This document shows positions 1 to 28,508 of a stretch of 63,177 bases of DNA, piece after piece. The position numbers and the translations under genes are program-made. Under the pieces are notes generated by a model. That model ran no database searches. It was given only the letters and a program-made list of their open reading frames with translations, and was not told where the DNA came from. Source of the stretch: Acidobacteriota bacterium (GTDB taxonomy: Bacteria > Acidobacteriota > Vicinamibacteria > Fen-336); contig QHVM01000046.1 of NCBI GenBank assembly GCA_003223555.1, forward strand, positions 1 to 63,177. The letters run 5' to 3'. Within the stretch, counting starts at the first letter, position 1; the number at the start of each line of letters is the position of its first letter.

Positions 1-2
1 CC

Positions 3-365
3 AATTTCCCGATGGCCTTCGACACGTCACACCATCGGCTTTTTGTCCTGACGCGCAAACCGCCGCACCTGGTCGTGCTCGACACCGAGACCGGTAAAGA
101 AGTCGCGAGGCTGCCCGCCGACGGCGATGCGGACGACCTCTTCTACGACGCCGCGCGACACCGTCTCTACGGCTGCTTCGGGGCGGGGTCGGTCATGGTA
201 TACGGCCAGAGCGATCCCGACCACTACGCGGAGCTCGCGAAGGTCCCCACCGCGGCCGGGGCCCGGACGGGTTTCTTCGCCCCGGAGCTGGGGCGCCTCT
301 TCGTCGCCGTGCCTCACCGCGCGAACCCCACCGCGGAGATCCGCGTATTCGACACCGGAACGTAA
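3..365 (+). CDS. C-terminal part of a beta-propeller protein (5' end outside window)
   Basis: The frame is open from the left edge, so this is the last ~120 residues of a gene that starts outside the window; the ATG at 12 is probably internal. The visible part repeats short strand-turn-strand units (HRLFVLTRKP, LVVLDTETGKEV, HRLYGCFGAGSV, GRLFVAVPHR), ending in EIRVFDTG. This pattern is typical of YncE/WD40-like beta-propellers, often secreted and used for ligand or protein binding. No catalytic residue can be assigned and the N-terminus, including any signal peptide, is not visible. It lies left of the tRNA-Ser remnant, so it may belong to an integrated element rather than the core chromosome. 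Confidence 0.6.
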   Translation, partial: NFPMAFDTSHHRLFVLTRKPPHLVVLDTETGKEVARLPADGDADDLFYDAARHRLYGCFGAGSVMVYGQSDPDHYAELAKVPTAAGARTGFFAPELGRLFVAVPHRANPTAEIRVFDTGT

Positions 366-713
366 TGACTGTTCGGGAGACTGAGATGACTGCTTCGGCA
401 AGACGACTGTGGCCGTTGGGCGGCACGATGATCGCCACGCTTCATTCGATGATTTGGAACGGCGGAGGTCGCGGCCGGTAAGGCGTCGCTAGGTGGGCGC
501 GCGATTGACTGACGAGGACGACCGATGGTTCGAACTTCCGTGCGCCGCTCGGGCCGGCGCGCGTCGACTCTAACGCGAATTTGACGAGATCAGGGCCTCC
601 GCCGGCCTAGCCAGGTTGTGGCCCAAGCGTGGTCATTCTGATTCTCGGGTGCACCCTCAGACTGTTACCACGCTGCTACCGTTTCTCAACCTGCTGGCTG
701 GTTCCAGGGTGTC
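366..713. other. gene-free stretch left of the IS element
   Basis: About 350 bases between the propeller gene and the IS630 insertion. No open frame with plausible codon use, no RNA gene and no clear terminator were seen. Base composition is less GC-rich than the rest of the window. It ends in the CTA half of the CTAG insertion target. Confidence 0.5.
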
Positions 714-715
714 TA

Positions 716-732
716 GTGTAGCGTCTCCTAAA
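716..732 (+). repeat. left terminal inverted repeat of IS630 element
   Basis: GTGTAGCGTCTCCTAAA; pairs with the right end except for a two-base inversion (CT versus TC) near the inner edge. Confidence 0.85.
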
Positions 733-781
733 TAGATGGAACATGCGATGGTCCCAACTCGTTTCGTAGAGTGTGGGATTC

Positions 782-1831
782 ATGCCGACGGAGTGCGTGG
801 TCAGCGCAGCGGATCGAGCAGTGCTGGAGCAGTGGCTGCGGTCACCGACGGTGCCTCAGGAATGGGGCTTGCGGGCCAGGATCCTGTTGGCGACCGCAGC
901 GGGCGAGGGCGTTCGTGCTATGGCACGGCGGCTGGACGTCTCGCCCACCACCGTGTGTCTCTGGCGTGAGCGGTACCGAGAGGAGGGCTTGGCGGGCCTG
1001 CGCACGCAGCCCCGCCCCGGCAGACCTCGCCGGATCAGTCCAGCCAAGGAGCGCTCGGTTGTGGAAGCCACTCTGCGTCCGCCGAAAGTAGCGACCCACT
1101 GGAGCGCGCGGCGACTCGCCAAGGAAGTGGGACTCAGTTCCGCCACGGTTCACCGCATCTGGCAGAAGTACGGCCTGCAGCCGCACCGAGTGAAGCGCTT
1201 CAAGTTCAGCACCGATCCCAACTTCGACAGTAAGCTGGCGGATGTAATCGGGCTCTACCTTGACCCGCCCGAGCGGGCCCTGGTGTTGTGCGTCGACGAG
1301 AAGTCCCAGATTCAGGCCTTGAATCGGACCCAACCGATCCTGCCCTTGCGCTCGGATCTGCCCACGCGTATGACCCACGACTACGAACGTCACGGCACGA
1401 CCAGCCTGTTCGCCGCTCTTGAGGTGACCAGCGGAAAGGTCCACGGGCGCTGCTTCCCGAAGCACACTCACATGGAGTTCATCGACTTCTTGAAGTCGAT
1501 CGACCGCCGATACCGGCGACGGGAGATCCACCTCATCTGCGACAACTACGGCACCCACAAACACCCCGCGGTCCGGGCCTGGCTCGCCGAGCATCCCCGC
1601 TTCCAGCTGCACTTCACTCCCACCAGCGCCTCCTGGCTCAACCTCGTGGAGCGCTGGTTCGGCCTCATCACGGAACAAACCATCCGGCGGGGAAGCTTCG
1701 ACACTGTCTGGAAGCTCGAGCGCGCCATTCATCGCTTCATCGCCAACTGGAACGAGGACGCCAAGCCCTTCCGTTGGACGGCTTCTCCTCGAAGCATCAA
1801 GGCCAAGATCCGCCGTGTTGCAGAGATTTGA
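782..1831 (+). CDS. IS630-family transposase
   Basis: Catalyses cut-and-paste transposition of the surrounding element. The first ~110 residues hold helix-turn-helix DNA-binding segments (AMARRLDVSPTTVCLWRERY and a second around SARRLAKEVGLSSATVHRIW). The C-terminal DDE superfamily endonuclease domain shows the three acidic catalytic positions in VDEKSQ, CDNYGTHK and WLNLVERWFG. The length of about 350 residues is normal for the family. ATG at 782 is preferred; an in-frame GTG at 773 would add MGF. The frame ends inside the right inverted repeat, as in many IS630 elements. No frameshift is seen. Confidence 0.92.
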   Translation: MPTECVVSAADRAVLEQWLRSPTVPQEWGLRARILLATAAGEGVRAMARRLDVSPTTVCLWRERYREEGLAGLRTQPRPGRPRRISPAKERSVVEATLRPPKVATHWSARRLAKEVGLSSATVHRIWQKYGLQPHRVKRFKFSTDPNFDSKLADVIGLYLDPPERALVLCVDEKSQIQALNRTQPILPLRSDLPTRMTHDYERHGTTSLFAALEVTSGKVHGRCFPKHTHMEFIDFLKSIDRRYRRREIHLICDNYGTHKHPAVRAWLAEHPRFQLHFTPTSASWLNLVERWFGLITEQTIRRGSFDTVWKLERAIHRFIANWNEDAKPFRWTASPRSIKAKIRRVAEI

Positions 1832-1843
1832 GAGACGCTACAC
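1827..1843 (-). repeat. right terminal inverted repeat of IS630 element
   Basis: Reverse complement reads GTGTAGCGTCTCTCAAA, matching the left end; overlaps the last codons of the transposase. Confidence 0.85.
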
Positions 1844-1917
1844 TAGTCCTCGGTGCTGCGCTTGTCGTCAGAAGGGCTTGAGTCCCCTGGAACCGTCGGA
1901 GATATCTCGCCACTCGG

Positions 1918-1979
1918 GTTGCTAATCTGTTGTGCGGGTAAACCTGCACCGGGGGTTCGAATCCCCCCCCTGTCCGCCA
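1918..1979 (+). pseudogene. 3' half of tRNA-Ser(GCU), probable attachment-site remnant
   Basis: From the anticodon loop onward the sequence is a class II tRNA-Ser: loop TTGCTAA with anticodon GCU, then a long variable-arm hairpin (GTGC...GCAC), a T arm GGGGG-TTCGAAT-CCCCC, acceptor strand CCTGTCC, discriminator G and CCA. Upstream there is no matching 5' acceptor strand (GGACAGG), no D arm and no proper anticodon 5' stem, so the 5' half is absent. The C run after the T loop has eight Cs where seven would be expected, which also argues against function. A break in the anticodon loop is characteristic of integrase-mediated insertion into a tRNA gene. The IS630 end lies 75 bases away and did not cause the truncation. 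Confidence 0.8.
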
Positions 1980-2026
1980 AGTGCTGATGCGCGTCTTCGG
2001 CGGGGCCATGACCCCCCATTCCCTCG

Positions 2027-2424
2027 CTACCGCCGGAGGTCTTCCACTCGGCATCCGACGGAGCGCTTGGTGATCTCTGGATCGCCGGTGAGCAAAACCG
2101 CCCTGCGAGCCGCGGCCGTGGCAATAGCAAAGGCGTCCGCATAAGCGAGCGGATGCGTCGCTTTGATCCGGGCAGCAGCTAGGACGCGTTCCGGCGTCAC
2201 GGCATCCAGGGCCAATATCGGGCGGAGCATGGCCAGCGTGACGTCCGCCTCCTTTCCCCCGGCCGCCCGGTGGATGGTGTAGTACACCTCGCCTAGGTTG
2301 ATCCAGCTCATGGCCGCCCACGCCTCAGAACTTGCCGGACCCGGCGCGCGGCTGGCGAAGAGCCTTCGAGAAACCGCAGGACCGCCCACGAATCGAGGCA
2401 GTAGGAGCGAACGCGGTCGGCCAT
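2027..2424 (-). pseudogene. PIN-domain (VapC-like) toxin, frameshifted
   Basis: VapC-type toxins are Mg-dependent ribonucleases restrained by a cognate antitoxin. The N-terminal frame starts at an ATG that overlaps the antitoxin stop (TGATG) and reads MADRVRSYCLDSWAVLRFLE, stopping at 2308. The rest continues in another frame from about 2311 (AMSWINLGEVYYTI ... YADAFAIATA ... LLTGDPEI). Joined, they give ~132 residues with the usual PIN acidic positions: D near residue 11, E in NLGEVYY, D in YADAF and D in TGDPEI. The two parts are separated by a single-base-type frame change in GTGGGCGGCC. It may be inactivated, a sequence error, or translated as two pieces. Confidence 0.75.
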
Positions 2425-2642
2425 CAGCGGCGACGCTCAGCCCGACGGTCCTCCTCCAGCGCCTTCACCAAACGGTGGCCGGCCAACCGCCCCATCAGTG
2501 CATCGGGCGAAGCCAGGCGTTCGACTCGGATGGCGTTGCCATCCCGTGAGAACGTGACCTCGTCCCCCGGCTCGAGATTCACGGCCTCCCGAAAGGCTTT
2601 TGGGATGACAACCTGCCCCTTGCGGCCAACGCGGTGAGTCAT
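2424..2642 (-). CDS. AbrB/SpoVT-fold (VapB-like) antitoxin
   Basis: A 72-residue DNA-binding antitoxin. The first ~45 residues carry the swapped-hairpin AbrB signature: VGRKGQVVIPKAFREAVNLE followed by PGDEVTFSRDGNAIRVERL. The charged C-terminal tail (KALEEDRRAERRR) is where such antitoxins usually bind the toxin. Its stop codon overlaps the toxin start by one base, so the two are translationally coupled, antitoxin first. Pairs of this type normally autorepress through the AbrB domain. The toxin frame is broken, so this antitoxin may be an orphan. Confidence 0.85.
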   Translation of the reverse strand: MTHRVGRKGQVVIPKAFREAVNLEPGDEVTFSRDGNAIRVERLASPDALMGRLAGHRLVKALEEDRRAERRR

Positions 2643-2884
2643 ACCGCATAGTATAACCGCAAGCGACGCCGAGGGCCATGAGACCTAGCTTGTCCGCGGT
2701 TCACCCCTGGCGCCGTACCAGCTCGCTCTTCGGAGCCCGAGCAGGCGGCTTAGCTCGACGCTCCACGACTGCAGGCCGTCGCGCTGCTCCTTGAGAGGGC
2801 GATTCGGGACTCGGCAGGACTCGACCTTGATCTTGACGTTCTCCCCGCCAACCGTTAATGTCGCCGCCCGCCCACGGACTCGGC

Positions 2885-3636
2885 ATGAAGAAGAAGATCC
2901 CGATCGCACTCGCCGTCGTCGTCGCGCTGCCGCTCCTCGGCGTGGGCGCCCTGTTCGCGACGAGGGAGAAGCCCGACGGCCCCCGGGTCGAGGTCGGGCC
3001 CGGCGTGGTCGGGGTCGACACCGGTGGGGCGTACGCCTGGATCGTGCGTACCCCGCACGGCGCGGTGCTGGTCGACGCCGGGCTCGATGCCAAGGGCGCC
3101 GCCATCCTGGCCGAACTAAAGGCCGAGGGCGTGCCGCCGGACCAGGTCCACGCTGTCCTCATCACCCATGGCCACCCCGACCACTACGCAGCCGCCGGGC
3201 TCTTCCCGAAGGCCAGGGTCATGGCCGGCTCCGGCGACCTGGCGATGATCCGCGGCGACAAGGCCCACTACGCCACCTTCGGCAGGATCATGAGCGCCGT
3301 GATGCCGTTGCCGCCGGGCCCCCCGGCGGTGACGGGGCTCCGCGGCGACGAGCAGCTGGAGTTCGACGGCGCCCGGTTCAGGGTGATCGCCACCCCCGGC
3401 CACTGCCGGGCAGCGTGATGTACCTCTACCGGGACGTGCTCTTCACGGGCGACTCGCTGATGCGCAAGAAGGACGGCGTCGCCATTGCGCCCTCCCTGTT
3501 CTCCGAGGATTCCGAGAGGAACCGCGCCTCACTCCGGGCGCTCGAGCCGCTGGCGTTCGACAAGATCGCCGACGGCCACGCCGGCGTCACCACCGGCGCC
3601 AAGGGCAAGCTCGCCCGCTTCCTCGCGGGCTCGTGA
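2885..3636 (+). pseudogene. metallo-beta-lactamase-fold hydrolase, one-base frameshift
   Basis: Begins MKKKIPIALAVVVALPLLG, a signal peptide or N-terminal anchor, so the product is exported. The MBL metal-binding motif THGHPDHYAAA is intact, and the next ligand lies in IATPGHC. At about 3410 the frame changes: the first frame ends with CRAA and a stop at 3418, while the continuation (GSVMYLYRDVLFTGDSLMRK ... IADGHAGV) is in the next frame to 3636. Restoring one C in CTGCC-GGGCAG, giving the palindrome CTGCCCGGGCAG, rejoins them as ATPGHCPGSVMYLY. The intact product would be ~250 residues, normal for a glyoxalase II-like hydrolase. Substrate is unknown. Real frameshift and sequence error cannot be separated here. 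Confidence 0.8.
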
Positions 3637-3695
3637 ACGCGTCCGGCCCGCGACGTCACGAGACTGGTCGAGGGTCGTGAGATGATGTCGGGTTC

Positions 3696-5210
3696 ATGCC
3701 CGACCCCGCCTCGTCTCCTGATCCGCCGCGCTTTGATCCGGCCCGCCGCCGTGCGGTCACGTTCGCGCTGGCGCTCATCAGCGCCACCGCCGCGCTCGAG
3801 GGCACGGTGGTGTCCACCGCCATGCCGACGATCGTCGGCGACCTCCAGGGCCTGTCCCTCTACTCCTGGGTCTTCTCGGTCTTCCTCCTGACCTCCACCG
3901 TCACGATGCCGCTCTATGGGCGGCTGGCCGACATCTACGGGCGGCGCCGCGTGCTGCTGCTGGCGACCAGCCTGTTCCTCATCGGCGGGCTCGCGTGCGC
4001 GTTCGCGCGCTCGATGCCGCAGCTCGTGGCGGCGCGCGGCCTCCAGGGGCTCGGCGCCGGGGGACTCCTGCCGGTGGCGATCGCCGTCGTCGCCGACCTG
4101 TATGCGCTCCGCGAGCGGGCGCGCATCCAGGCGCTGTTCAGCGCGATCTGGGGCACCGCGAGCCTCATCGGTCCGCTCCTCGGTGCGTTCCTGACGCTGA
4201 GCCTCGGCTGGCGGTCGATCTTCCTGGTGATCGTGCCGCTCGGCCTCGTATCCCTCGCGCTCGAGGCCACGCAGATGCGCGAGTCGCGCGCCTCGCGCCC
4301 CGATCCGTTCGACTGGGTGGGTGGGGCAACGCTCACGGCCGGCGTGTCCGCGCTGCTGCTCGCCACCCTGCGCGAAGCGGGGAGTGGCGGGCACACCCGG
4401 CCACGTCTGGCGCTCATCGCCGTCGGCGTCGCGCTGCTGGCCGCCTTCGCGCGCCAGCAGGTGCGGCGGGAGCACCCCTTGGTGCCGCTCACGCTGCTCA
4501 CGCATCGGGACACGGCGGCGCCGTACCTGGCGGGCGCGCTGGTGGGGACGACGATCTTCGGTGTCGACACCTTCGTCCCCCTCTTCGTCCAGGGGGCGCG
4601 CGGGGGAACGGCCGCCGCGGCGGGAGCGGTCGTGACGCCGATCATGTTCTTCTGGGCGACTTCGGCCTCGCTCGGCACGCGCGCGCTCGTGCGCTACGGC
4701 TTCCGCGCCACCGCCCACGTGGGGTCGCTCCTGGTCACCGCGGGCTGCGCCGCGCTGCTGGCCGCCGCGCTGGCCGAGGCCCGCGTCGCGTGGATCAGCG
4801 CCGCTTGCGCCCTCATCGGCATGGGCCTGGGACCCCTGGCCACGTCGCAGATGCTGGCCGTGCAGCACGCCGCGCCCGAGAGCCAGCGGGGTGTGGCGAG
4901 CAGCCTGGTCCCCTTCTTCCGCGCGCTCGGCGGCGCGCTCGGCGTCGGCACGCTGGGCGGGCTGTTGTCGTCGGGCCTCGACCGCCACCTGGGCCCGGCG
5001 GCCGACGTGGCCGGCCGTCTCCTGGCGGGTCGCGAGACCGTCCTGCCGCCCGGGGTCACGCCGCTCGGGGTGCGCCATGCGATCGCCGGCTCCCTGCTGC
5101 CCGTCTTCGGCGTCATGCTGGTCCTCGCCATCGTCAACGTGGCCATCGTCGGCCGCTTCCCTGGCCGGGCCCACGATCCGGCCGAGCAGGTCCCCCGTCC
5201 AGCCGCTTGA
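3696..5210 (+). CDS. MFS drug-exporter-like transporter (DHA2/EmrB-QacA type)
   Basis: A 504-residue integral inner-membrane protein with about 14 hydrophobic segments, the DHA2 arrangement. Near the N-terminus TALEGTVVSTAMPTIVGDL-like sequence matches the family signature at the end of helix 1, and YGRLADIYGRRRVLL is the conserved MFS loop 2-3 motif. MAARGLQGLGAGGLLPV-like sequence matches the helix 4 region. Members couple proton influx to export of hydrophobic drugs or metabolites; the substrate cannot be inferred. It follows the broken MBL gene by 59 bases on the same strand. No regulator is adjacent. Confidence 0.88.
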   Translation: MPDPASSPDPPRFDPARRRAVTFALALISATAALEGTVVSTAMPTIVGDLQGLSLYSWVFSVFLLTSTVTMPLYGRLADIYGRRRVLLLATSLFLIGGLACAFARSMPQLVAARGLQGLGAGGLLPVAIAVVADLYALRERARIQALFSAIWGTASLIGPLLGAFLTLSLGWRSIFLVIVPLGLVSLALEATQMRESRASRPDPFDWVGGATLTAGVSALLLATLREAGSGGHTRPRLALIAVGVALLAAFARQQVRREHPLVPLTLLTHRDTAAPYLAGALVGTTIFGVDTFVPLFVQGARGGTAAAAGAVVTPIMFFWATSASLGTRALVRYGFRATAHVGSLLVTAGCAALLAAALAEARVAWISAACALIGMGLGPLATSQMLAVQHAAPESQRGVASSLVPFFRALGGALGVGTLGGLLSSGLDRHLGPAADVAGRLLAGRETVLPPGVTPLGVRHAIAGSLLPVFGVMLVLAIVNVAIVGRFPGRAHDPAEQVPRPAA

Positions 5211-5271
5211 ACACCATCTGGCGACCTGAGGAAAGGCAGGACTCGAGCCCGCTGCCGAACGTTACCGGGGC

Positions 5272-5352
5272 GTGGAGGTGCGCGTGAACGACCGTAACTC
5301 GACCGTCCGGATCTGGATCGACGAGAGCGCGGACGCGCAGGAGGGGAAGTGA
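5272..5352 (+). CDS. very short open frame coupled to the next gene
   Basis: A ~26-residue frame from GTG 5272 (or GTG 5278/5284) ends VNDRNSTVRIWIDESADAQE plus GK, and its stop lies one base before the ATG of the next gene (TGAGATG). The tight spacing suggests coupled translation. The frame is open back to 5230, so it could instead be the tail of a decayed gene. The product is not recognised. Confidence 0.35.
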   Translation: MEVRVNDRNSTVRIWIDESADAQEGK

Positions 5353-5353
5353 G

Positions 5354-5629
5354 ATGCTGCTCAAGATCGGCGTGGTCCTCGCCGCGATCCCGGTGACCCT
5401 GGGAGCCGTGGTGGCCGGCACCGGCGTGATGGTCGTGGACGTGAAGGACTCGGACGGCACGCGCATCGTGGTGCCGGTCCCGTTCGACCTCGCCCGCCAG
5501 GCACTGCGCCAGGCCCGCGACGGCCGCGTCTCGCCGGCCGATCTGGTGGCGGCGCTACGCCGGGCGCGCCTGACGCGCCTCGCCGACGTGCGCGACGGCG
5601 GCGATCACGTGAGGATCACGATCTGGTGA
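5354..5629 (+). CDS. small membrane-anchored protein of unknown function
   Basis: 91 residues. An N-terminal hydrophobic segment (GVVLAAIPVTLGAVVAG) is a membrane anchor or signal, followed by a short soluble domain beginning VMVVDVKDSDGTRIVVPVPF and ending DGGDHVRITIW. The ATG follows the stop of the upstream short frame almost immediately. No family function is recognised. The charged middle (ALRQARDGRVSPADLVAALR) looks helical. It ends just before a convergent gene. Confidence 0.6.
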   Translation: MLLKIGVVLAAIPVTLGAVVAGTGVMVVDVKDSDGTRIVVPVPFDLARQALRQARDGRVSPADLVAALRRARLTRLADVRDGGDHVRITIW

Positions 5630-5649
5630 TCTGAGCCGCCGCGGACCGG

Positions 5650-6036
5650 TCAGTCGGTCTTCTGGACCAGCTCCTCGACGACGGAGAGCCAGCCGCGCAG
5701 CTCGGCCGCGGTCGGCGCCAGCTCGTAGGCATGGTGGTGGCAGGCCCGGCTCAGCGCCGACCAGGCATGGCCGGCGCGCGCGGCGAGGTCCGCATCTTCC
5801 AGGTAGGTTCGCAGGCAGATGAGCTGGACCCTCATGGGGCAGCGCTGGAGGTCGAGCGTGCGGCGCTCCCACAGCCGCTGCACGGCGGCCTCCAGGGCCC
5901 GGCACCCGAGCAGGGCCGAGGCTCGGGGCCACAGGCCCGCCGTGTCCGGGTCGACGCGACCGAGCATGGCTCGGGCCAGGCTCAGCACGTTGCGGGGGCC
6001 GTCGTCGCCTCTTCTCAATTCAGCCCCCGGAGCCAC
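5650..6036 (-). CDS. small helical protein partnered with the SMC-like ATPase (possible HEPN)
   Basis: 128 residues from a GTG that overlaps the ATPase stop by about 20 bases; a TTG about 15 bases further in is an alternative. The sequence is predicted mostly helical and Leu/Ala-rich, with no signal or membrane segment. The C-terminal half contains SALSRACHHHAYELAPTAAE, in which R-A-C-H-H-H fits the loose Rx4-6H pattern of HEPN ribonucleases and the following YEL/helix resembles HEPN helix 4. That match is short and is inference only. Overlap with the ATPase indicates one transcription unit and probably a functional pair. Other cysteines (GCRAL, RCPM, ICL) are not arranged as a zinc site. Confidence 0.65.
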   Translation of the reverse strand: MAPGAELRRGDDGPRNVLSLARAMLGRVDPDTAGLWPRASALLGCRALEAAVQRLWERRTLDLQRCPMRVQLICLRTYLEDADLAARAGHAWSALSRACHHHAYELAPTAAELRGWLSVVEELVQKTD

Positions 6037-8459
6037 GCCGCGAGCTTGCTCGCCAGGCGCACGAGGTCGACCGCCTCCGCCGGCGGGATCTCACCGCCCT
6101 CCTCGCAGCGCCGCAGCGTATCGGCAAGGGAAGCTCCGGCGCCGCGTTGGAGGCGCTCGCGCACCTCCCCGCCGCGGGCGACGTCGTCGAAGAGGGCGAG
6201 GGCGGCGAGGCCGGTCAGGTGCCCGGCCTCGCTCAAGGTCCGCTCGACCGAGGCGTGACCCTCTCCGCGGTCCAGCCGCCGGCGACGCACCACCTCCATG
6301 CACGTCGCCTCGAGGGCGAGCCGGCAGAGGCCCGGAACCACATGCGCGGCGGCGGAGGAAGGCAGCTCGGCCGTGCTGGCGACGGCGAGGGCATCTTCGA
6401 GGTAGCGCCCGACCGGATCGCCGGCCCGGCGCAGCTCGACGATCGACCCCTCCCGACGCGTTACCTCGAGGATCTCGGCCGCGATGTCCAGCCGGCGCAC
6501 GGCCTCGGGGAGACGGTCGTCGTGGGTGAAGACCACGACCTGGCGGTCCGTGGAGGCGCTCTGGAGGACGCGGGCCAGGCCGTCGACCCGGGCCGGGTCC
6601 ATGGACTGGACGGGATCGTCGATCACGATGAAGCGGAACGGGCTCTCGGGGAGCGTGGCGCGGGGGACGAAGAGGCTGAGGGCGAGGGAGTGCAGCTCGC
6701 CCTGGCTCATCACGCCGAGGGCGGCGCCCGCGACGCCGTCGACGGTGACGTCGAGGACCACGCGGCGTCGCGTGCCGTCGCCGGTGAGCTGGATCCGTCC
6801 CAGCTCCACGTGGCTCTGCTGGCGGAGGCGCTCCCAGATCCCCGCCGCTTTCTCGGCGATCGGCCCGAAGCGGTCGTCACGGATCCCGGCCGCCGCCTTC
6901 TTCAGCCAGGTCTCCGCCGGCTTGATGCGCTTGAGGTCGCCGACTCCGCGCACGGCCTCGCGCGCCCCGGCCAGCCAGCCCGCGACCTCCGCCACCACGG
7001 GACGCCAGGCGTCCTCCCGGCGATCGAGCCTCACGCGCGCCGCCTCCCGCAGGCGAAGGACCGCCTTGCCCAGCGGCCCGCTCGCGGATTCCACGTGGTT
7101 GGCGAGGTCCCCGAGATCGTCGATCGACTGCGCCCGGACCCAGACCTCCAGCGCGGCGACCAGCTCCCGCAGGTCCAGCCCCGCCTCGCTCGCACGCTGG
7201 AGCGCCTCGCCCTTCAGGACCGCCAGCTCCTCCCACCGCCGCCGGGCGGCTTCGGCGCGCTCGTAGGCGGCCTCCGCGTCCCGCGCCGTTTCCCGAAGGC
7301 GCGCCACGGCGGTCCGCTGCCGCTTGTCCCAGCCGCGGTCGAGGGCGAGCTCGCGCCCGCAGACCGGGCAGTCGCCGTCGCCATGGGTGGCATGGAAGGC
7401 GAGCGCGAGCTCGAGGAGCTTCGCCGCGTCGCGGGAGCGGGCGGCCGGCGTGCTCTGGGCGAAGGTCAGGGCCCCCGCCGCCCCGCGCATCTCGGCCACG
7501 GCGTCCGCCACCCGAACCGGGTCGGGCGGCTCCAGGCCTGCGATCGCCCGCAGCACGTCGGCTTCCGCCGTGCCCGTCCCCGTCGAGCCGGCGGCGGTGA
7601 CGACCGCTTCCACGGCGGCGAGATCCCATTCCTTGCCCTCGATGGCCGCGACTACCCGCCGCGCCCGTTTGTCGTCGACCTCCCGCAGCCGTTCGACCAG
7701 GCGATCCCGCCCCTCGGTCGCGTCCTTGAGCGCCTTCTCCCGCGAGCGGCGGGCCTCCTGGAGCGCGCCCTGGGCTTCGACGAGGTCCTCCAGACCCAGG
7801 ATGGAGGAAAGGGCGTCGTAAAGCTTCGAGGGTCCTTCGTCGAGCAGCGATCCCAGCTCGTTGTAGGACAGGAACGGGCGATGCGTACGCAGCGCCGAGG
7901 TCCAGCCGAGAGAGTCCAGGTCGGACTTCGGCCGGCCGGGTAGCTCGACCACGACGTCCGCGACTTCGAAGTCGGCCTCGGCCTCCCACCGGCGCGAAAC
8001 CACGCAGGGTCGCGGCTCCCCCTCCACGAGGAAGGTGGCGCTCAGGAAGGCCGCGGGATGGTGGAGGTTCCGCCAGCCGTCACGCCAGACGGCGGCGCGC
8101 TCTTTCCAGCGCAGGCTGTCGCCCGTGAGCAGCACCTCGAGGGCTTCGGCGAAGCTCGATTTGCCGGAGCCGTTGCGCCCCACGACCAGGGTGAGACCGG
8201 GGCCCGGCGCCAGCTCCAGGGTCTGCGGGCGGCCGATGCCGCGGAAGCCCTCGACGGCGACCGAGCGCAGGAAGGTGCCGGTCGCCGCCGGAGACGGCGG
8301 CGCCGCGAGCGGCCGGGGCGAGGCAGAGCTGCCGGCCAGCTGCGCCTCGAGACCGTCGCGGCCTTCGAGGGCGCCGAGGACGACGTCGCTCCAACCGTCG
8401 GCGCGGGCGCCGTCCGCCTCGAGCCGCGCCAGCACGATTCGCCGCAGGCCGGGATCCAT
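6015..8459 (-). CDS. SMC/Rad50-like ABC ATPase with zinc-hook motif
   Basis: About 814 residues starting at ATG 8459; an upstream in-frame extension to 8513 is less likely. Walker A is VVGRNGSGKSSF near residue 94. A charged coiled-coil arm follows, with a single CPVC (residues ~364-367, context DGDCPVCGREL) at its apex, which is the Rad50-type zinc hook. A second coiled-coil returns to an ABC signature MSQGELHSLAL (~584), Walker B FRFIVIDDPVQSMD (~609) and the switch region VVVFTHDDR (~645). About 130 helical residues follow, with LDRGEGHASVE. It is shorter than SbcC/Rad50 and has no adjacent Mre11/SbcD nuclease. The tail and the overlapping small gene suggest a stand-alone DNA- or nucleotide-sensing ATPase system, possibly defensive. 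Confidence 0.85.
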   Translation of the reverse strand: MDPGLRRIVLARLEADGARADGWSDVVLGALEGRDGLEAQLAGSSASPRPLAAPPSPAATGTFLRSVAVEGFRGIGRPQTLELAPGPGLTLVVGRNGSGKSSFAEALEVLLTGDSLRWKERAAVWRDGWRNLHHPAAFLSATFLVEGEPRPCVVSRRWEAEADFEVADVVVELPGRPKSDLDSLGWTSALRTHRPFLSYNELGSLLDEGPSKLYDALSSILGLEDLVEAQGALQEARRSREKALKDATEGRDRLVERLREVDDKRARRVVAAIEGKEWDLAAVEAVVTAAGSTGTGTAEADVLRAIAGLEPPDPVRVADAVAEMRGAAGALTFAQSTPAARSRDAAKLLELALAFHATHGDGDCPVCGRELALDRGWDKRQRTAVARLRETARDAEAAYERAEAARRRWEELAVLKGEALQRASEAGLDLRELVAALEVWVRAQSIDDLGDLANHVESASGPLGKAVLRLREAARVRLDRREDAWRPVVAEVAGWLAGAREAVRGVGDLKRIKPAETWLKKAAAGIRDDRFGPIAEKAAGIWERLRQQSHVELGRIQLTGDGTRRRVVLDVTVDGVAGAALGVMSQGELHSLALSLFVPRATLPESPFRFIVIDDPVQSMDPARVDGLARVLQSASTDRQVVVFTHDDRLPEAVRRLDIAAEILEVTRREGSIVELRRAGDPVGRYLEDALAVASTAELPSSAAAHVVPGLCRLALEATCMEVVRRRRLDRGEGHASVERTLSEAGHLTGLAALALFDDVARGGEVRERLQRGAGASLADTLRRCEEGGEIPPAEAVDLVRLASKLAAWLRGLN

Positions 8460-8599
8460 CTGCCTAGAGTCTACTGCGGCAGCCGAAGCGGTCGTTCGGC
8501 CGCGACCGGCCATCTTCCTCGAGGTGGCGGACTTCGACTACGATTACCGGCGGGCCACACCTACGTCGGCCACTGCGAGCCGCGCGTGCCCCTGATCTG

Positions 8600-9226
8600 A
8601 TGCGCACGAACCTCCGCCGGGCGGCCGTTCTGGCCGTCGCGCTCCTCCTCTCCGTCGGACCGTCCGCCCATCCGCTCGATTCGGAAGCCGAACGGATCGT
8701 CGCCGCCCTCGGCCTCCGGCCAGGACTGCGGGTGGCCGACGTGGGCACGGGGAACGGGGACTGGGCGGAACGCATCGGCCGCGAGGTGGGGGAGACGGGG
8801 CACGTCTACGCCACGGAGGTCGATCGCGACAAACTCCAGACGGTCGACGCACGGCTGAAGGAGGCGGGCCTGAAGAACGTGACCACCATCCTCGGAACCC
8901 AGGAGGATACCGGCCTGCCCCCCGGGTGCTGCGATGCGATCCTGCTGCGCATGGTCTATCACCACTTCACCGACCCCGCACGGATGCGGGTCAGCCTGCG
9001 CTCGGCCCTTCGCCGGGGCGCTCCCCTCGTGGTCATCGACACGGAGCCCCAGAAGAACTGGCGGCGCCTCGAAGGGGTTCCCGACCGCGGCGGGCACGGC
9101 ATCAAGCAGGAGGACCTGGTGCGCGAGATGACCGCGGACGGCTTCGAGGTGGTGGCGCGGCACGACGACTGGCCCGGCGACGGCGCCCGCTACTGCGTGG
9201 TCTTCCGTCGGACGAACGGATCGTAG
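8600..9226 (+). CDS. exported class I SAM-dependent methyltransferase
   Basis: 208 residues with an N-terminal signal peptide (RRAAVLAVALLLSVGPSAHP). The Rossmann methyltransferase core shows motif I VADVGTGNGDWAERIGREV, an acidic residue closing strand 2 (YATEVDR), and a later GCCDAILLRMVYHHF segment. The C-terminus ends GARYCVVFRRTNGS. A methyltransferase with a signal peptide is unexpected because SAM is cytoplasmic, but such proteins are common in Acidobacteria and Planctomycetes. The substrate is unknown. It is divergent from the SMC-like ATPase with a 140-base gap. Confidence 0.8.
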   Translation: MRTNLRRAAVLAVALLLSVGPSAHPLDSEAERIVAALGLRPGLRVADVGTGNGDWAERIGREVGETGHVYATEVDRDKLQTVDARLKEAGLKNVTTILGTQEDTGLPPGCCDAILLRMVYHHFTDPARMRVSLRSALRRGAPLVVIDTEPQKNWRRLEGVPDRGGHGIKQEDLVREMTADGFEVVARHDDWPGDGARYCVVFRRTNGS

Positions 9227-9282
9227 CCTCGAGCCTCGCCGCGGGGCTCGGCGGTCTGAGACAATGGCCCAGGAGGTCTCCC

Positions 9283-9732
9283 ATGCTGAGGCGATTCGTC
9301 TTCGTCGCCGTTGCCGCCGCTCTCGCGGCCTCACCCGCGCTGGCCGACAAGGGCAAGGGAAAGTCCAAGGGGCGGGGCCGGGAGGGGGGAGTCGTCGAGG
9401 AGAGGGGCCGGCGTGAGGTCGTGGTGTTCAACGACCGCGACCGCGAGGCCGTACGGACGTACTGGGTGCAGACCTACGGGCCGGGCAACTGCCCGCCCGG
9501 CCTGGCCAAGAAGCACAACGGCTGCCTGCCCCCCGGCCTCGCGAAGAGGCGATACGTCGTCGGCCGGCCCCTGCCGGCCTCGGTCAGGGTCGAGCCGCTG
9601 CCGCCGGTCCTCGTGACGCGGCTCGGCCCGCCGCCCGCGGGATACGAGTACGCCGTGGTGGACGGCGATGTCGTCAAGCTGGCGGTCGGCACGAGACTCG
9701 TCGTCGACGCGATCAACGCCATCCTCCGCTGA
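9283..9732 (+). CDS. RcnB-like secreted small protein
   Basis: 149 residues from ATG 9283, which is preceded by an AGGAGGT ribosome-binding site. A signal peptide (RRFVFVAVAAALAASPALA) is followed by a Lys/Gly/Arg-rich basic stretch. The C-terminal domain carries NCPPGLAKKHNGCLPPGLAK and PPAGYEYAVVDGDVVKLAV, typical of RcnB/CigR-family periplasmic proteins. E. coli RcnB affects nickel/cobalt balance, but the function of other family members is largely unknown. It sits 23 bases before the enolase-superfamily gene on the same strand. Confidence 0.75.
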   Translation: MLRRFVFVAVAAALAASPALADKGKGKSKGRGREGGVVEERGRREVVVFNDRDREAVRTYWVQTYGPGNCPPGLAKKHNGCLPPGLAKRRYVVGRPLPASVRVEPLPPVLVTRLGPPPAGYEYAVVDGDVVKLAVGTRLVVDAINAILR

Positions 9733-9755
9733 CATCGTTCCGGCCGGAGGATCTC

Positions 9756-11117
9756 ATGCAACGCCGCGACGTCCTGCGATGGCTGTCGTCTGGAGTGGGC
9801 GCGGGGGGAGTCGCCTTCGCGCCGTCCCGCGGACTCGCGTTCCAACCGCCCTCGGCGGCCGCGCCGGCGGCGCGCGGCCTTCCGCCGCTGCGCATCACGG
9901 ACGTCAAGACCGTCCTGACCGCGCCCAACGGGATCCGGCTGGTCGTGGTCAAGGTGACCACGAGCGAGCCCGGCCTCTATGGCGTGGGCTGCGCGACCTT
10001 CACCCAGCGCGCCTACGCCGTGGACACCGCGGTCGAGAAGTACCTGCGGCCGTTCCTCCTCGGACGGAACCCCGACGAGATCGAGGACATCTGGCAGTCC
10101 AGCTACGTGAGCTCGTACTGGCGGAACGGCCCCGTCCTCTTCAACGCGATGAGCGGCGTCGACGAGGCGCTGTGGGACATCAAGGCCAAGCGAGCGAGCA
10201 TGCCGCTCTACCAGCTCCTGGGGGGAAAGGTCCGCAAGGGCGCCGACCTCTATTACCACGCGAGCGGGCGCGACTTCGCCGAGGTGGAGGACCAGGTCCG
10301 CTGGGCCGTGGAGCGGGGCTTCCGGCACGTCCGCATCCAGGTCGCGGTGGAGGGGGTGTCCACCTACGGCGCGGGCGGTGCCGCGGGCGCCGCGGCCGCG
10401 GGGGAGGACGGCCCCACCAACCCGACCCGGGTCTGGGAGCCGTCGGCCTACGTCCGGCTGGTCCCGAGGCTGTTCGAGCACATCCGGGCCAAGGTCGGCG
10501 AGGAGGTCGAGCTGCTGCACGACGTCCACGAGCGCGTCACGCTCCCGCAGGCCGTGCAACTGTGCAAGGAGCTGGAGAAGTACCGGCCGTTCTTCATCGA
10601 GGACCCGCTGCCGCCCGAGGAGAACGAGCACTTCCGGATCCTGCGCCAGCAGACGAGCGCGCCCCTGGCCATGGGAGAGCTGTTCAACACCCAGCACGAG
10701 TACGTCCCCCTCGTCGCCGGGCGCCTCGTCGATTTCATCCGGTGCCACGTCTCGCAGATCGGCGGGCTCAGCATGGCGCGCAAGGTGGCCGCGCTCTGCG
10801 AGTTCTTTGGCGTGCGCACGGCCTGGCACGGGCCGGGCGACACTTCACCGGTCGGGCACGCGTCGCAGCTGGCCCTGGAGCTGGCGAGCTACAACTTCGG
10901 CATCCACGAGGGCGCGGGCTTCCCCCCGGAGACGCGCGACGTGTTCCGCGGCTGCCCGGAGGTCAAGGACGGCTACATGCTCGCCAGCGAGGCGCCCGGG
11001 CACGGGATCGAGGTGGACGAGAAGCTGGCCGCGAAGTTCCCGTATCCCGAAGGACCGACCTTCGATTACAACTGGGGGCGGACGCGCCGCCGGGACGGCA
11101 CGGTGATCCGTCCGTAG
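9756..11117 (+). CDS. enolase-superfamily dehydratase, mannonate dehydratase/RspA-like, Tat-exported
   Basis: 453 residues. The N-terminus RRDVLRWLSSGVGAGGVAFA is a twin-arginine-type signal, so a folded enzyme is probably exported. The barrel carries the expected Mg ligands in order: LLHDVHERVTLPQA (D and H as in ManD enzymes), FFIEDPLPPEENEHF (E) and MGELFNTQHEYVPL (E). These are followed by CHVSQIGGLS and TAWHGPGDTSPVGHA. Characterised relatives dehydrate D-mannonate or D-gluconate, or belong to the poorly active RspA subgroup. The exact acid substrate cannot be read from sequence. A Tat signal on this family is recurrent in Acidobacteria and Planctomycetes. Confidence 0.85.
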   Translation: MQRRDVLRWLSSGVGAGGVAFAPSRGLAFQPPSAAAPAARGLPPLRITDVKTVLTAPNGIRLVVVKVTTSEPGLYGVGCATFTQRAYAVDTAVEKYLRPFLLGRNPDEIEDIWQSSYVSSYWRNGPVLFNAMSGVDEALWDIKAKRASMPLYQLLGGKVRKGADLYYHASGRDFAEVEDQVRWAVERGFRHVRIQVAVEGVSTYGAGGAAGAAAAGEDGPTNPTRVWEPSAYVRLVPRLFEHIRAKVGEEVELLHDVHERVTLPQAVQLCKELEKYRPFFIEDPLPPEENEHFRILRQQTSAPLAMGELFNTQHEYVPLVAGRLVDFIRCHVSQIGGLSMARKVAALCEFFGVRTAWHGPGDTSPVGHASQLALELASYNFGIHEGAGFPPETRDVFRGCPEVKDGYMLASEAPGHGIEVDEKLAAKFPYPEGPTFDYNWGRTRRRDGTVIRP

Positions 11118-11122
11118 CGGCC

Positions 11123-11716
11123 TCACTCCGCCCGGTAGCCGACGAAGATGAACTTGCCCTGCGTCTGCTGCAGGCGCACCTGGGCGGTGGCCGCGGTCTG
11201 GCCGCTCGCGCCGTCGCGCAGGATCAGGTTGTAGGTCTGGCCTTCGGTCGTCGACCAGTCGACGATGTACAGCGCACCGCTCTGGTCGATGGGCAGGTCG
11301 ATGCCTTCCTCGCTGGCCAGCTCCTTCTCCGCGATGAGCTGCACGCCGCTCGCTTCCACCCGGCGCACCTTGAGGCTCACCAGGTCCCTGCGCTTGAGCG
11401 TGTCCACCTCGATCCGGGGGGCGAAGACGACCGTCTTGGCCACGCCCACCGCGTCCGAGGAGGCCGGAGGCGCCGACATGAAGGGTCCGGAGGGCGGAAC
11501 GGCCGGGCGCGATCGCAGCTCGGTCACACCCGTTTCGACGGCCTTCAGCGCGCCTTTCATGGCGTCCAGGGCCTCGTCCCTCTGCCGCGCCCTGGCCTCC
11601 AGCGCGGCCACCTCGCTCTGCAAGCGATCCAGCTCTGCCCGAAGCGCCGATACGTCCGGCGAAGGCGCCTGCGGCGCCAGCAGCACGGTCAGGACGAGCG
11701 GCAGCGGATCGAGCAT
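11123..11716 (-). CDS. secreted coiled-coil protein of unknown function
   Basis: About 197 residues. The ATG at 11716 is preferred over 11722 because AGGAGG lies six bases upstream of it. A short hydrophobic signal (PLPLVLTVLLAPQAP) precedes a heptad-rich coiled coil (DVSALRAELDRLQSEVAALE and onward), then a Pro/Ser linker. The C-terminal half is beta-rich: VFAPRIEVDTLKRRDLVSLK, then GKFIFVGYRAE at the end. No enzyme motif is seen. It is convergent with the dehydratase gene, with only five bases between stops. Confidence 0.65.
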   Translation of the reverse strand: MLDPLPLVLTVLLAPQAPSPDVSALRAELDRLQSEVAALEARARQRDEALDAMKGALKAVETGVTELRSRPAVPPSGPFMSAPPASSDAVGVAKTVVFAPRIEVDTLKRRDLVSLKVRRVEASGVQLIAEKELASEEGIDLPIDQSGALYIVDWSTTEGQTYNLILRDGASGQTAATAQVRLQQTQGKFIFVGYRAE

Positions 11717-11757
11717 GGTCATCCTCCTGTGCGGAGGCCAGCGGCCCCGCCGCTATC

Positions 11758-27176: not shown

Positions 27177-28508
27177 CTAGCCCTCGGGCTCGGACGACCC
27201 ACCCCCACCGGGCGGGGACGGGTCGGGCTCGCGCCTCATCCAGGACGACAGGAACGAGAACCGTCGGCGATCCTCCTGGTGCGCGTCGGAAGGCGCCTCG
27301 GCCGCCGGCGGCGCCTCGCCGCCCGGAGACGGCGCGCCGGGACGGGCGGTCGCCTCGGTCGCGCTTTGTTCCGCCGGTTCGGGGCCGGCCTCCTCGCTGC
27401 CTTCGGCAGAGAGGTCGGCTTCGTCGCTCTCGACCTCCTCGTGCTCGTCGGCTCCCCCGGCCTCGTCGTTCCCGGGATGCGATCCCGGCTCCATGAATGC
27501 GCCGGCGGCGAGGACGGAGGCGGCCCGCCCGCGTCCCCGGCCGCGGCTGCGGCGCCGGCGTGGCGTCCGCGTGCCGTTGGCGGCCGCCTCGCTGGGGCCA
27601 GCCTCGCCGGCCGCCACCGGCACGGGGCCCAATGCGGCGGCCTCGGGTGGCCGAGCGACGCCCGGCGCGGGCATCGACGCGGCAACCGCGGGCGGCGCGG
27701 GCGGCGCAGCGGTGGCGGGAACGGCGGCGCCGCTCGACACCGCGCCGGGCCCGAGGTCCTCGACGATGTAGCTGCCTGACTTCTGGTCCCGGCGCAGCAC
27801 GACGATCCCGCGTCGCTGGGCGTCTTCCAGCAGGTGCGAGAAGGTGCGGAAGCCGTAGTAGGTCTCGTTGAAGGAGGGCTTCTTGCGCTTCATGGTCTCC
27901 TTGACCATGGAGCCCCAGAGCACCTCCTTGTTCTCGCGCTGGAGGGCGAGCACGGAGTCGACGAGCAGCGAGAAGACTTCCTGCTGCTTCTCGTTGGCGT
28001 TGGCGATCACCGGCACCGGCCGCTGCTGGCCGCGGACGAGGTCCTCGTAGAAGATGAACTCGTCGCAGTTCTCGATCAGCAGGTCGGAGGTCGAGTTCTT
28101 CACCCCCAGCCCGATGACGTACTTGTTGTTCTCCTTCAGCTTGGAGACGAGGGGCGAGAAGTCGGAGTCGCCCGAGGCGACCACGAAGCAGTTGATGTGC
28201 TCCTTCTGGAACGACATGTCCATGGCGTCGACCACCAGTCGGATGTCGGCCGAGTTCTTGCCGCCGACCGACTTCTGGGGCACCTCGATCAGCTCGATGG
28301 CCGCCTCGTGGAAGCTGCGCTTGTAGTCGGCATAGCGGCTCCAGTCCGCGTAGGCCTTCTTGACGAGGAGCTTGCCCTTGTCGAGCAGCCGCTCGAGGAC
28401 GAGGTTGACGTCGAACTTGCGGTAGTGGGCGTCGCGGACGCCGATGGCGATGTTCTCGAAGTCGATGAAGAGGGCGAGCCGTTGCTCGTCCTGGGAATTG
28501 CTGGCCAA
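27177..28508 (-). CDS. NYN-domain nuclease with OST-HTH/LOTUS RNA-binding domain
   Basis: 443 residues from a TTG start that has GAGGAGG six bases upstream. Residues ~10-160 are a LabA/NYN PIN-like domain: LALFIDFENIAIGVRDAHYR with the first catalytic Asp, GKNSADIRLVVDAMDMSFQ, and FVVASGDSDFSPLVSKLKE with the last acidic pair. Residues ~180-260 form an OST-HTH (LOTUS) domain (SVLALQRENKEVLWGSMVKE ... YYGFRTFSHLLEDAQRRGIV). The last ~170 residues are low-complexity Ala/Pro/Glu. Such proteins are believed to act on RNA. Catalytic aspartates are present, so it is probably an active metal-dependent RNase. Confidence 0.88.
   Translation of the reverse strand: MASNSQDEQRLALFIDFENIAIGVRDAHYRKFDVNLVLERLLDKGKLLVKKAYADWSRYADYKRSFHEAAIELIEVPQKSVGGKNSADIRLVVDAMDMSFQKEHINCFVVASGDSDFSPLVSKLKENNKYVIGLGVKNSTSDLLIENCDEFIFYEDLVRGQQRPVPVIANANEKQQEVFSLLVDSVLALQRENKEVLWGSMVKETMKRKKPSFNETYYGFRTFSHLLEDAQRRGIVVLRRDQKSGSYIVEDLGPGAVSSGAAVPATAAPPAPPAVAASMPAPGVARPPEAAALGPVPVAAGEAGPSEAAANGTRTPRRRRSRGRGRGRAASVLAAGAFMEPGSHPGNDEAGGADEHEEVESDEADLSAEGSEEAGPEPAEQSATEATARPGAPSPGGEAPPAAEAPSDAHQEDRRRFSFLSSWMRREPDPSPPGGGGSSEPEG

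Follow-up and report, generated by a model that had tools for sequence, protein, structure and literature searches.

What is the role of a Rad50-type ATPase that is encoded without a nuclease neighbour and whose stop codon lies within the gene of a small helical protein? The question is raised by two overlapping genes in a 63,177-nucleotide stretch of contig QHVM01000046.1 from an Acidobacteriota bacterium, hereafter called the window. The pair appears to be a widespread mobile two-gene defence module that joins a Rad50-type ATPase to HEPN RNase-type domains in two parts.

The gene pair and the architecture of the ATPase

6015..8459, minus strand: gene 1, Rad50-like zinc-hook ABC ATPase with a putative C-terminal HEPN-like tail, 814 aa (ORF, Pfam, Rad50 fold, family alignment)
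5650..6036, minus strand: gene 2, small protein of predicted HEPN fold, 128 aa, GTG start at 6036 (ORF, predicted model, structural matches, conserved family)
6015..6036, minus strand: overlap of the two ORFs, 22 bp from the ORF coordinates (4 bp in most relatives, their commonest arrangement)
8154..8180, minus strand: Walker A, residues 94-102, GRNGSGKSS; G94, N96, G97, K100, S101 and S102 invariant in 78 homologues
7359..7370, minus strand: zinc hook CPVC, residues 364-367; C364, P365 and C367 invariant in 78
6696..6707, minus strand: ABC signature SQGE, residues 585-588, invariant in 78
6597..6632, minus strand: Walker B and D-loop, residues 610-621, FIVIDDPVQSMD; D614, D615, P616, V617, Q618 and D621 invariant in 78

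The limits of the pair are exact: the stop codon of the small gene ends at 5650, and the ATG of the ATPase begins at 8459. An alternative in-frame ATG upstream, at 8513, would give an ATPase of 832 aa, and the nearest homologues support 8459 as the probable start over 8513. The overlap of the ATPase stop with the small gene, described in an initial annotation made from the sequence alone, is confirmed by these coordinates.

The same annotation had recognised a Rad50-type hook, signature and Walker B in the ATPase, and all of these hold in the wider family. Walker B is FIVIDDP (residues 610-616), the zinc hook is found as CPxC in 73 of 73 ATPase sequences, and the predicted model (pLDDT 88.9) has Rad50 as its top solved match, with Z 27.5. 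This structure search was performed with the full-length protein and matched residues 62-680, which leaves the tail outside the matched span. The Pfam models SMC_N, AAA_21 and AAA_23 all score above their cut-offs. PF13166 (AAA_13), which matches proteins of the RloC/PrrC type, reaches 16.6 bits, below its cut-off of 36, and the PADLOC models LmuB, PtuA and AriA match the ATPase weakly.

The lack of a nuclease neighbour was also corroborated. The flanking genes encode an MFS transporter and a methyltransferase, one flanking ORF is without assignment, and none of the flanking ORFs checked is a nuclease of the Mre11/SbcD type. The window pair has no known defence system directly adjacent; at 3-5 kb lie a DDE transposase, IS630-like by its domain make-up (773-1828, plus strand), and a PIN-domain protein gene (2030-2389, minus strand). 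An NYN-domain (PIN-like RNase) protein is encoded at 27180-28508, minus strand, with no link to the pair.

The pairing of the two genes is near-strict. Scanning a broad range of genomes yielded 492 confirmed ATPase relatives, among which the similar pairs that the initial annotation mentioned for Actinobacteria were found. In the best 80 of these 492, the small gene is directly downstream of the ATPase in all 77 checkable loci, the contig or locus ending too early in the remaining three. The co-occurrence search that had been proposed also gave a conserved pair: identical genomes, 7 of 347, carry both genes in Acidobacteriota, while in Actinomycetota the ATPase is found in 15 of 286 genomes and the small gene in 15 of these 15. 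Of three extra Actinomycetota matches to the small gene, one is next to an ATPase tail where the contig ends, and the other two are a fragment and an orphan. The placement of the small gene is held by 18 of 18 class relatives having the ATPase or a clear ATPase remnant. The two genes have also diverged together, the pairwise distances of the two gene trees being correlated with r = 0.80 (0 of 2000 permutations). At least 490 matching stretches are present in one genome collection, and the pair appears to be widespread. The orphan small gene (L147, G606:C1, 8374-8898) lacks an ATPase and has helicase-like genes as neighbours; it is located on a complete chromosome and is probably a remnant.

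Given that both ORFs are conserved across phyla and that dN/dS is 0.17-0.48 against near relatives, the pair is more than a chance arrangement. For the window pair dN/dS is about 0.2, with values of 0.17-0.26 against G001 and G005, which indicate that it is maintained by purifying selection; the small gene compared with G003 reaches 0.48. The possibility that the small gene is an ORF artefact was rejected on the basis of conservation, predicted fold and dN/dS.

Predicted HEPN domains of the two proteins

5890..5904, minus strand: small protein residues 45-49; Cys45 in the window (Arg in 72 of 77), Arg46 and Glu49
5725..5748, minus strand: R97-A-C-H100-H-H102-A-Y104, HepT-like RX4HXY; of these residues, H100 and Y104 are conserved
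6018..6416, minus strand: ATPase tail, residues 682-814, predicted helices, putatively HEPN-like (helices and profile match to the small family)
6309..6323, minus strand: tail R713-X3-E717; R713 in 77 of 78, E717 in 76 of 78
6090..6092, minus strand: residue 790 of the tail; 71 of 78 relatives have His here, whereas the window and its clade have Glu

None of Pfam, PADLOC v2 and NCBIfam has a family that matches the small protein, and a sequence search of the PDB with the small family gave nothing significant. When its predicted model (pLDDT 88, pTM 0.82) is compared with solved structures, HEPN structures outrank unrelated bundles (2hsb with Z 14.6, 2q00 with 13.8, sacsin HEPN with 11.9 and HepT with 11.0). 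The best 25 matches are all HEPN or HEPN-fold nucleotidyltransferase-associated domains, with Z from 14.6 to 9.1; the Foldseek E-values are weak when taken alone. The fold of the small protein is confidently predicted to be the HEPN all-helical bundle, in agreement with the HEPN-like or helical partner proposed at the outset.

The residues conserved in the small family form a triad, R45-X3-E49-X50-H100, of which all three members are present in 70 of 77 small proteins and in 15 of 15 further loci with a complete region; across the family the E-to-H spacing is X46-52. A triad R-X3-E-X36-52-H, supported by mutagenesis, has been described in RloC (PMC2610378). As judged from the alignment, the conserved catalytic-type motif of the small family is R-X3-E...H, the pattern of the RloC/PrrC anticodon nucleases, and not Rx4H, an assignment that is new here. 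The Rx4H element in ACHHH context to which the initial annotation drew attention is indeed present in the window (R97-ACHH-H102), and together with Y104 it makes an intact RX4HXY, the motif of HepT (PMC7641770), but its arginine is not a feature of the family. R97 is found in 46 of 77 small proteins, H102 in 65 and Y104 in 73, with R97 and H102 together in 44 of 77; Rx4-6H is incomplete in about 40% of the family. For this reason, Rx4H is weakened as a candidate for the catalytic motif of the family.

These residues bear on a reading in the style of toxin-antitoxin systems, in which the small HEPN protein would be the sole RNase, acting as a HepT-like homodimer through RX4HXY, while the ATPase would silence it until triggered and the tail would serve for docking. 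The intact motif of the window copy would be explained in this way, as would the HepT structures among the fold matches and the mostly conserved H102 and Y104. It would be harder to explain why R97 varies while R45, E49 and H100 are near-invariant, why no MNT gene is adjacent (no MNT protein with GSX10DXD was found among the window neighbours) and why the tail has a conserved R-X3-E...H of its own. Such an arrangement is considered unlikely.

The extra helical tail of about 130 residues, which had been noted from the sequence, was recovered in the predicted ATPase model as seven helices past residue 680. Its profile aligns in hhalign with that of the small family with E-values of 6e-6 and 8e-5 on two cuts and a score of about 32, compared with at most 18 for 40 column shuffles and at most 17 for other ATPase segments, or 24 where these overlap the tail; the probability of the match is moderate, at 61-68%. 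The full pattern R713-X3-E717-X70-75-H790, with an E-to-H spacing of X72 in consensus numbering, is present in 69 of 78 relatives. The tail looks like a second HEPN-like domain, which goes further than what had been claimed for it.

Two loci have an unusual tail. In L146 (G649:C15, 7496-10272) the ATPase frame stops at about profile position 719, before most of the HEPN-like tail, and the small gene is retained; this locus is either a broken copy or a tail-less form that occurs naturally. In L216 (NZ_CP109103.1, 11803-14680), which is carried by a conjugative plasmid of Streptomyces, the annotation divides the ATPase between two genes, one of them a small gene for the final 72 tail residues; this reflects either a split or a frame change.

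Of the conserved columns, 19 in the small protein and 145 in the ATPase, the clade of the window deviates at one (R45) and at two (L598, conservatively, and H790), respectively. In Lentzea the deviations include H100 and H790 among a few others. The triad is altered in both proteins in these two lineages; L090 would be a third, weaker case. A joint change of this kind would be predicted by an HEPN active site shared between the two proteins; given that it was seen post hoc and in two lineages, it is suggestive only. The window copy, which is under purifying selection in spite of its degenerate triad, may be catalytically changed or regulatory, and its catalysis is uncertain.

A pair that is under purifying selection in spite of a degenerate triad would also suit an SMC/Lamassu-like DNA-targeting complex, in which recognition and inactivation of foreign DNA would fall to the ATPase, and the HEPN-fold protein would have no catalytic role, serving as a structural subunit or as one that binds nucleic acid. 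Non-catalytic HEPN domains do exist (PMC3710099), and the Rad50/SMC fold of the ATPase and its weak LmuB matches are compatible with such a complex. Nonetheless, the near-invariance of a polar triad in most of the family suggests catalysis, and the pair differs from Lamassu in that the small protein has no PADLOC match and no LmuA-type nuclease gene is found beside the window pair. This explanation is regarded as rather improbable.

Mobility and genomic surroundings

The pair is mobile and moves between bacterial phyla. The ATPase tree contains well-supported cross-phylum groups, for instance one that joins L054 (Acidobacteriota) to L055 (Actinomycetota) and another that places L062/G078 among Chloroflexota, mis-binned contigs remaining a caveat for these clades. 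Comparison of the window with its three nearest relatives (90, 84 and 76% DNA identity) gives alignments that begin at 5648-5667 and end at 8459-8502, that is, they span the two genes alone, and the immediate flanks differ. One of these relatives, G001, is also syntenic with the window farther away, at 14.5-18.6 kb, where other right-flank pieces of the window match scattered contigs. Plasmid-borne copies are found on a conjugative plasmid of Streptomyces anthocyanicus and on Streptomyces pM92, and decayed or broken copies in G066, G085 and L067. In the degraded locus of G066 (L180, G066:C17, 7117-11071) the ATPase is reduced to remnants interrupted by stops, next to which lie two small genes, one full-length and one partial. 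A search of viral contigs with the ATPase profile gave 10 pattern matches and no true relatives, and phage records held no match for the ATPase or the small protein, indicating that the pair is not typically phage-borne in those collections.

Proximity to defence genes, which had been put forward as a check, was evaluated at 21 loci by comparing the four nearest flanking ORFs with four ORFs elsewhere in the same genomes (PADLOC, E <= 1e-20). Beside the pair 66 PADLOC families were matched, against 5 in the matched controls, these being family counts in which one protein may be counted repeatedly. The pair is, by this measure, located in defence islands, which are found on plasmids as well as on chromosomes. 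The 66 include ZacA, ZacB and ZacC, PtuA, Hhe, type IV restriction, Mokosh, PDC-S37 and others; a type IV restriction enzyme is near the pair in L150. The S. anthocyanicus plasmid carries a type I R-M operon and a helicase gene in the vicinity of the pair, and the context on pM92 closely resembles this one. In L152 (G451:C1, about 3935-11750) zacC of the Azaca system is immediately upstream of the pair on the same strand.

The surroundings are different in Nocardia, where conserved genes for DUF5691, DUF5682 and MoxR-type AAA proteins lie around the pair (L088 and others, 1-7900). This suggests that the pair is inherited vertically in Nocardia and may act jointly with its neighbours, and such conserved non-defence synteny counts against a defence module. 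It would be more natural for an accessory of DNA repair or genome maintenance, as would the Rad50-like ATPase itself and its RefSeq annotation with double-strand break repair. A repair role is difficult to reconcile with the patchy distribution (7 of 347 and 15 of 286 genomes), the cross-phylum clades, the plasmid-borne and decayed copies and the enrichment of defence genes near the pair, and it is considered very unlikely.

Relation to known systems and possible mode of action

With Rad50-Mre11 and SbcC-SbcD the pair has in common the ATPase head, coiled coil and hook, and it differs from them by the lack of an Mre11/SbcD partner, the extra tail and the HEPN gene downstream (77 of 77). Septu (PtuA/PtuB) and PARIS (AriA/AriB) have a two-gene layout of an ABC-type ATPase sensor and an effector. 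The pair likewise joins an ABC-type ATPase to an effector-type partner, but this partner is HEPN-fold, whereas AriB of PARIS is a Toprim tRNase (PMC12409363); furthermore, the ATPase has a zinc hook and an HEPN-like tail, and the PtuA and AriA models match it weakly. HepT/MntA is also a two-gene unit with a small HEPN-fold protein, and the window copy keeps its RX4HXY, but here the partner is a zinc-hook ATPase and not an MNT nucleotidyltransferase, and the family motif is R-X3-E...H.

As in RloC/PrrC, a Rad50-like ABC ATPase with a CXXC hook is combined with a C-terminal helical domain carrying R-X3-E...H, and linkage to type I R-M systems is possible (PMC2610378, PMC3710099). RloC is a single polypeptide, whereas here the second HEPN domain is encoded by a separate, overlapping gene. 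In addition, the tail has an E-to-H spacing of 70-75 versus 36-52 and Glu790 in the window, so that the same-chain triad of RloC is not reproduced, and the ATPase falls below the PF13166 cut-off. PF13166 comparator proteins numbered none in 119 relatives and one in 246 Actinomycetota. The single comparator has a zinc hook and R-X3-E-X37-H with a local EGSH (tail consensus GAH); a profile comparison of this one sequence with the small protein and the tail domain found no match, so that homology to the RloC domain is at most tentative. The pair was not found described in the literature searched, and an earlier description is possible in surveys of ABC ATPases. It looks like a previously undescribed variant within the known ABC-ATPase plus HEPN kind, and a relative of RloC.

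The reading to which we give an even chance is that of a two-gene, RloC-like abortive-infection defence module, with its parts divided differently from RloC. The Rad50-like zinc-hook ATPase would be a DNA-handling sensor bearing a C-terminal HEPN-like domain, and the co-translated small protein would bind it as the second HEPN domain. The resulting heterodimer would be a metal-independent RNase of the HEPN type, to which both chains contribute R-X3-E...H residues and whose site the ATPase keeps inactive in the resting state. Abnormal DNA, such as phage ends or intermediates of replication or damage, would alter the ATP or hook state and release RNA cleavage, with tRNA as the likeliest target, and translation and phage growth would stop. 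The computed findings in favour are the ATPase architecture, the predicted fold of the small protein, the near-strict pairing and co-divergence, the mobility and island location, and the triad with its joint change; the heterodimer, its RNase activity, RNA target and DNA trigger, and abortive infection are inferred. Points against this reading are the incomplete Rx4-6H of many small proteins, the moderate profile similarity of tail and small family, the longer E-to-H spacing of the tail, the comparator without a profile match, the post hoc nature of the joint change, and the loss of R45 and H790 in the window copy. That a DNA-state sensor may control a two-chain HEPN RNase is inferred by analogy with RloC, given that its ATPase and hook restrain the nuclease and that hook mutation activates it (PMC2610378, PMC3710099).

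A narrower version of the RloC-like reading, which we hold only tentatively, places a single HEPN RNase active site across the Rad50-type sensor and its partner, with a DNA signal assembling or opening this site. The branch of the window would then have altered catalytic residues in both halves and still be under selection. With this pair one could cleanly test how a signal from DNA might be converted into RNA cleavage, and the two lineages with jointly altered active-site residues, that of the window included, are ready natural variants.
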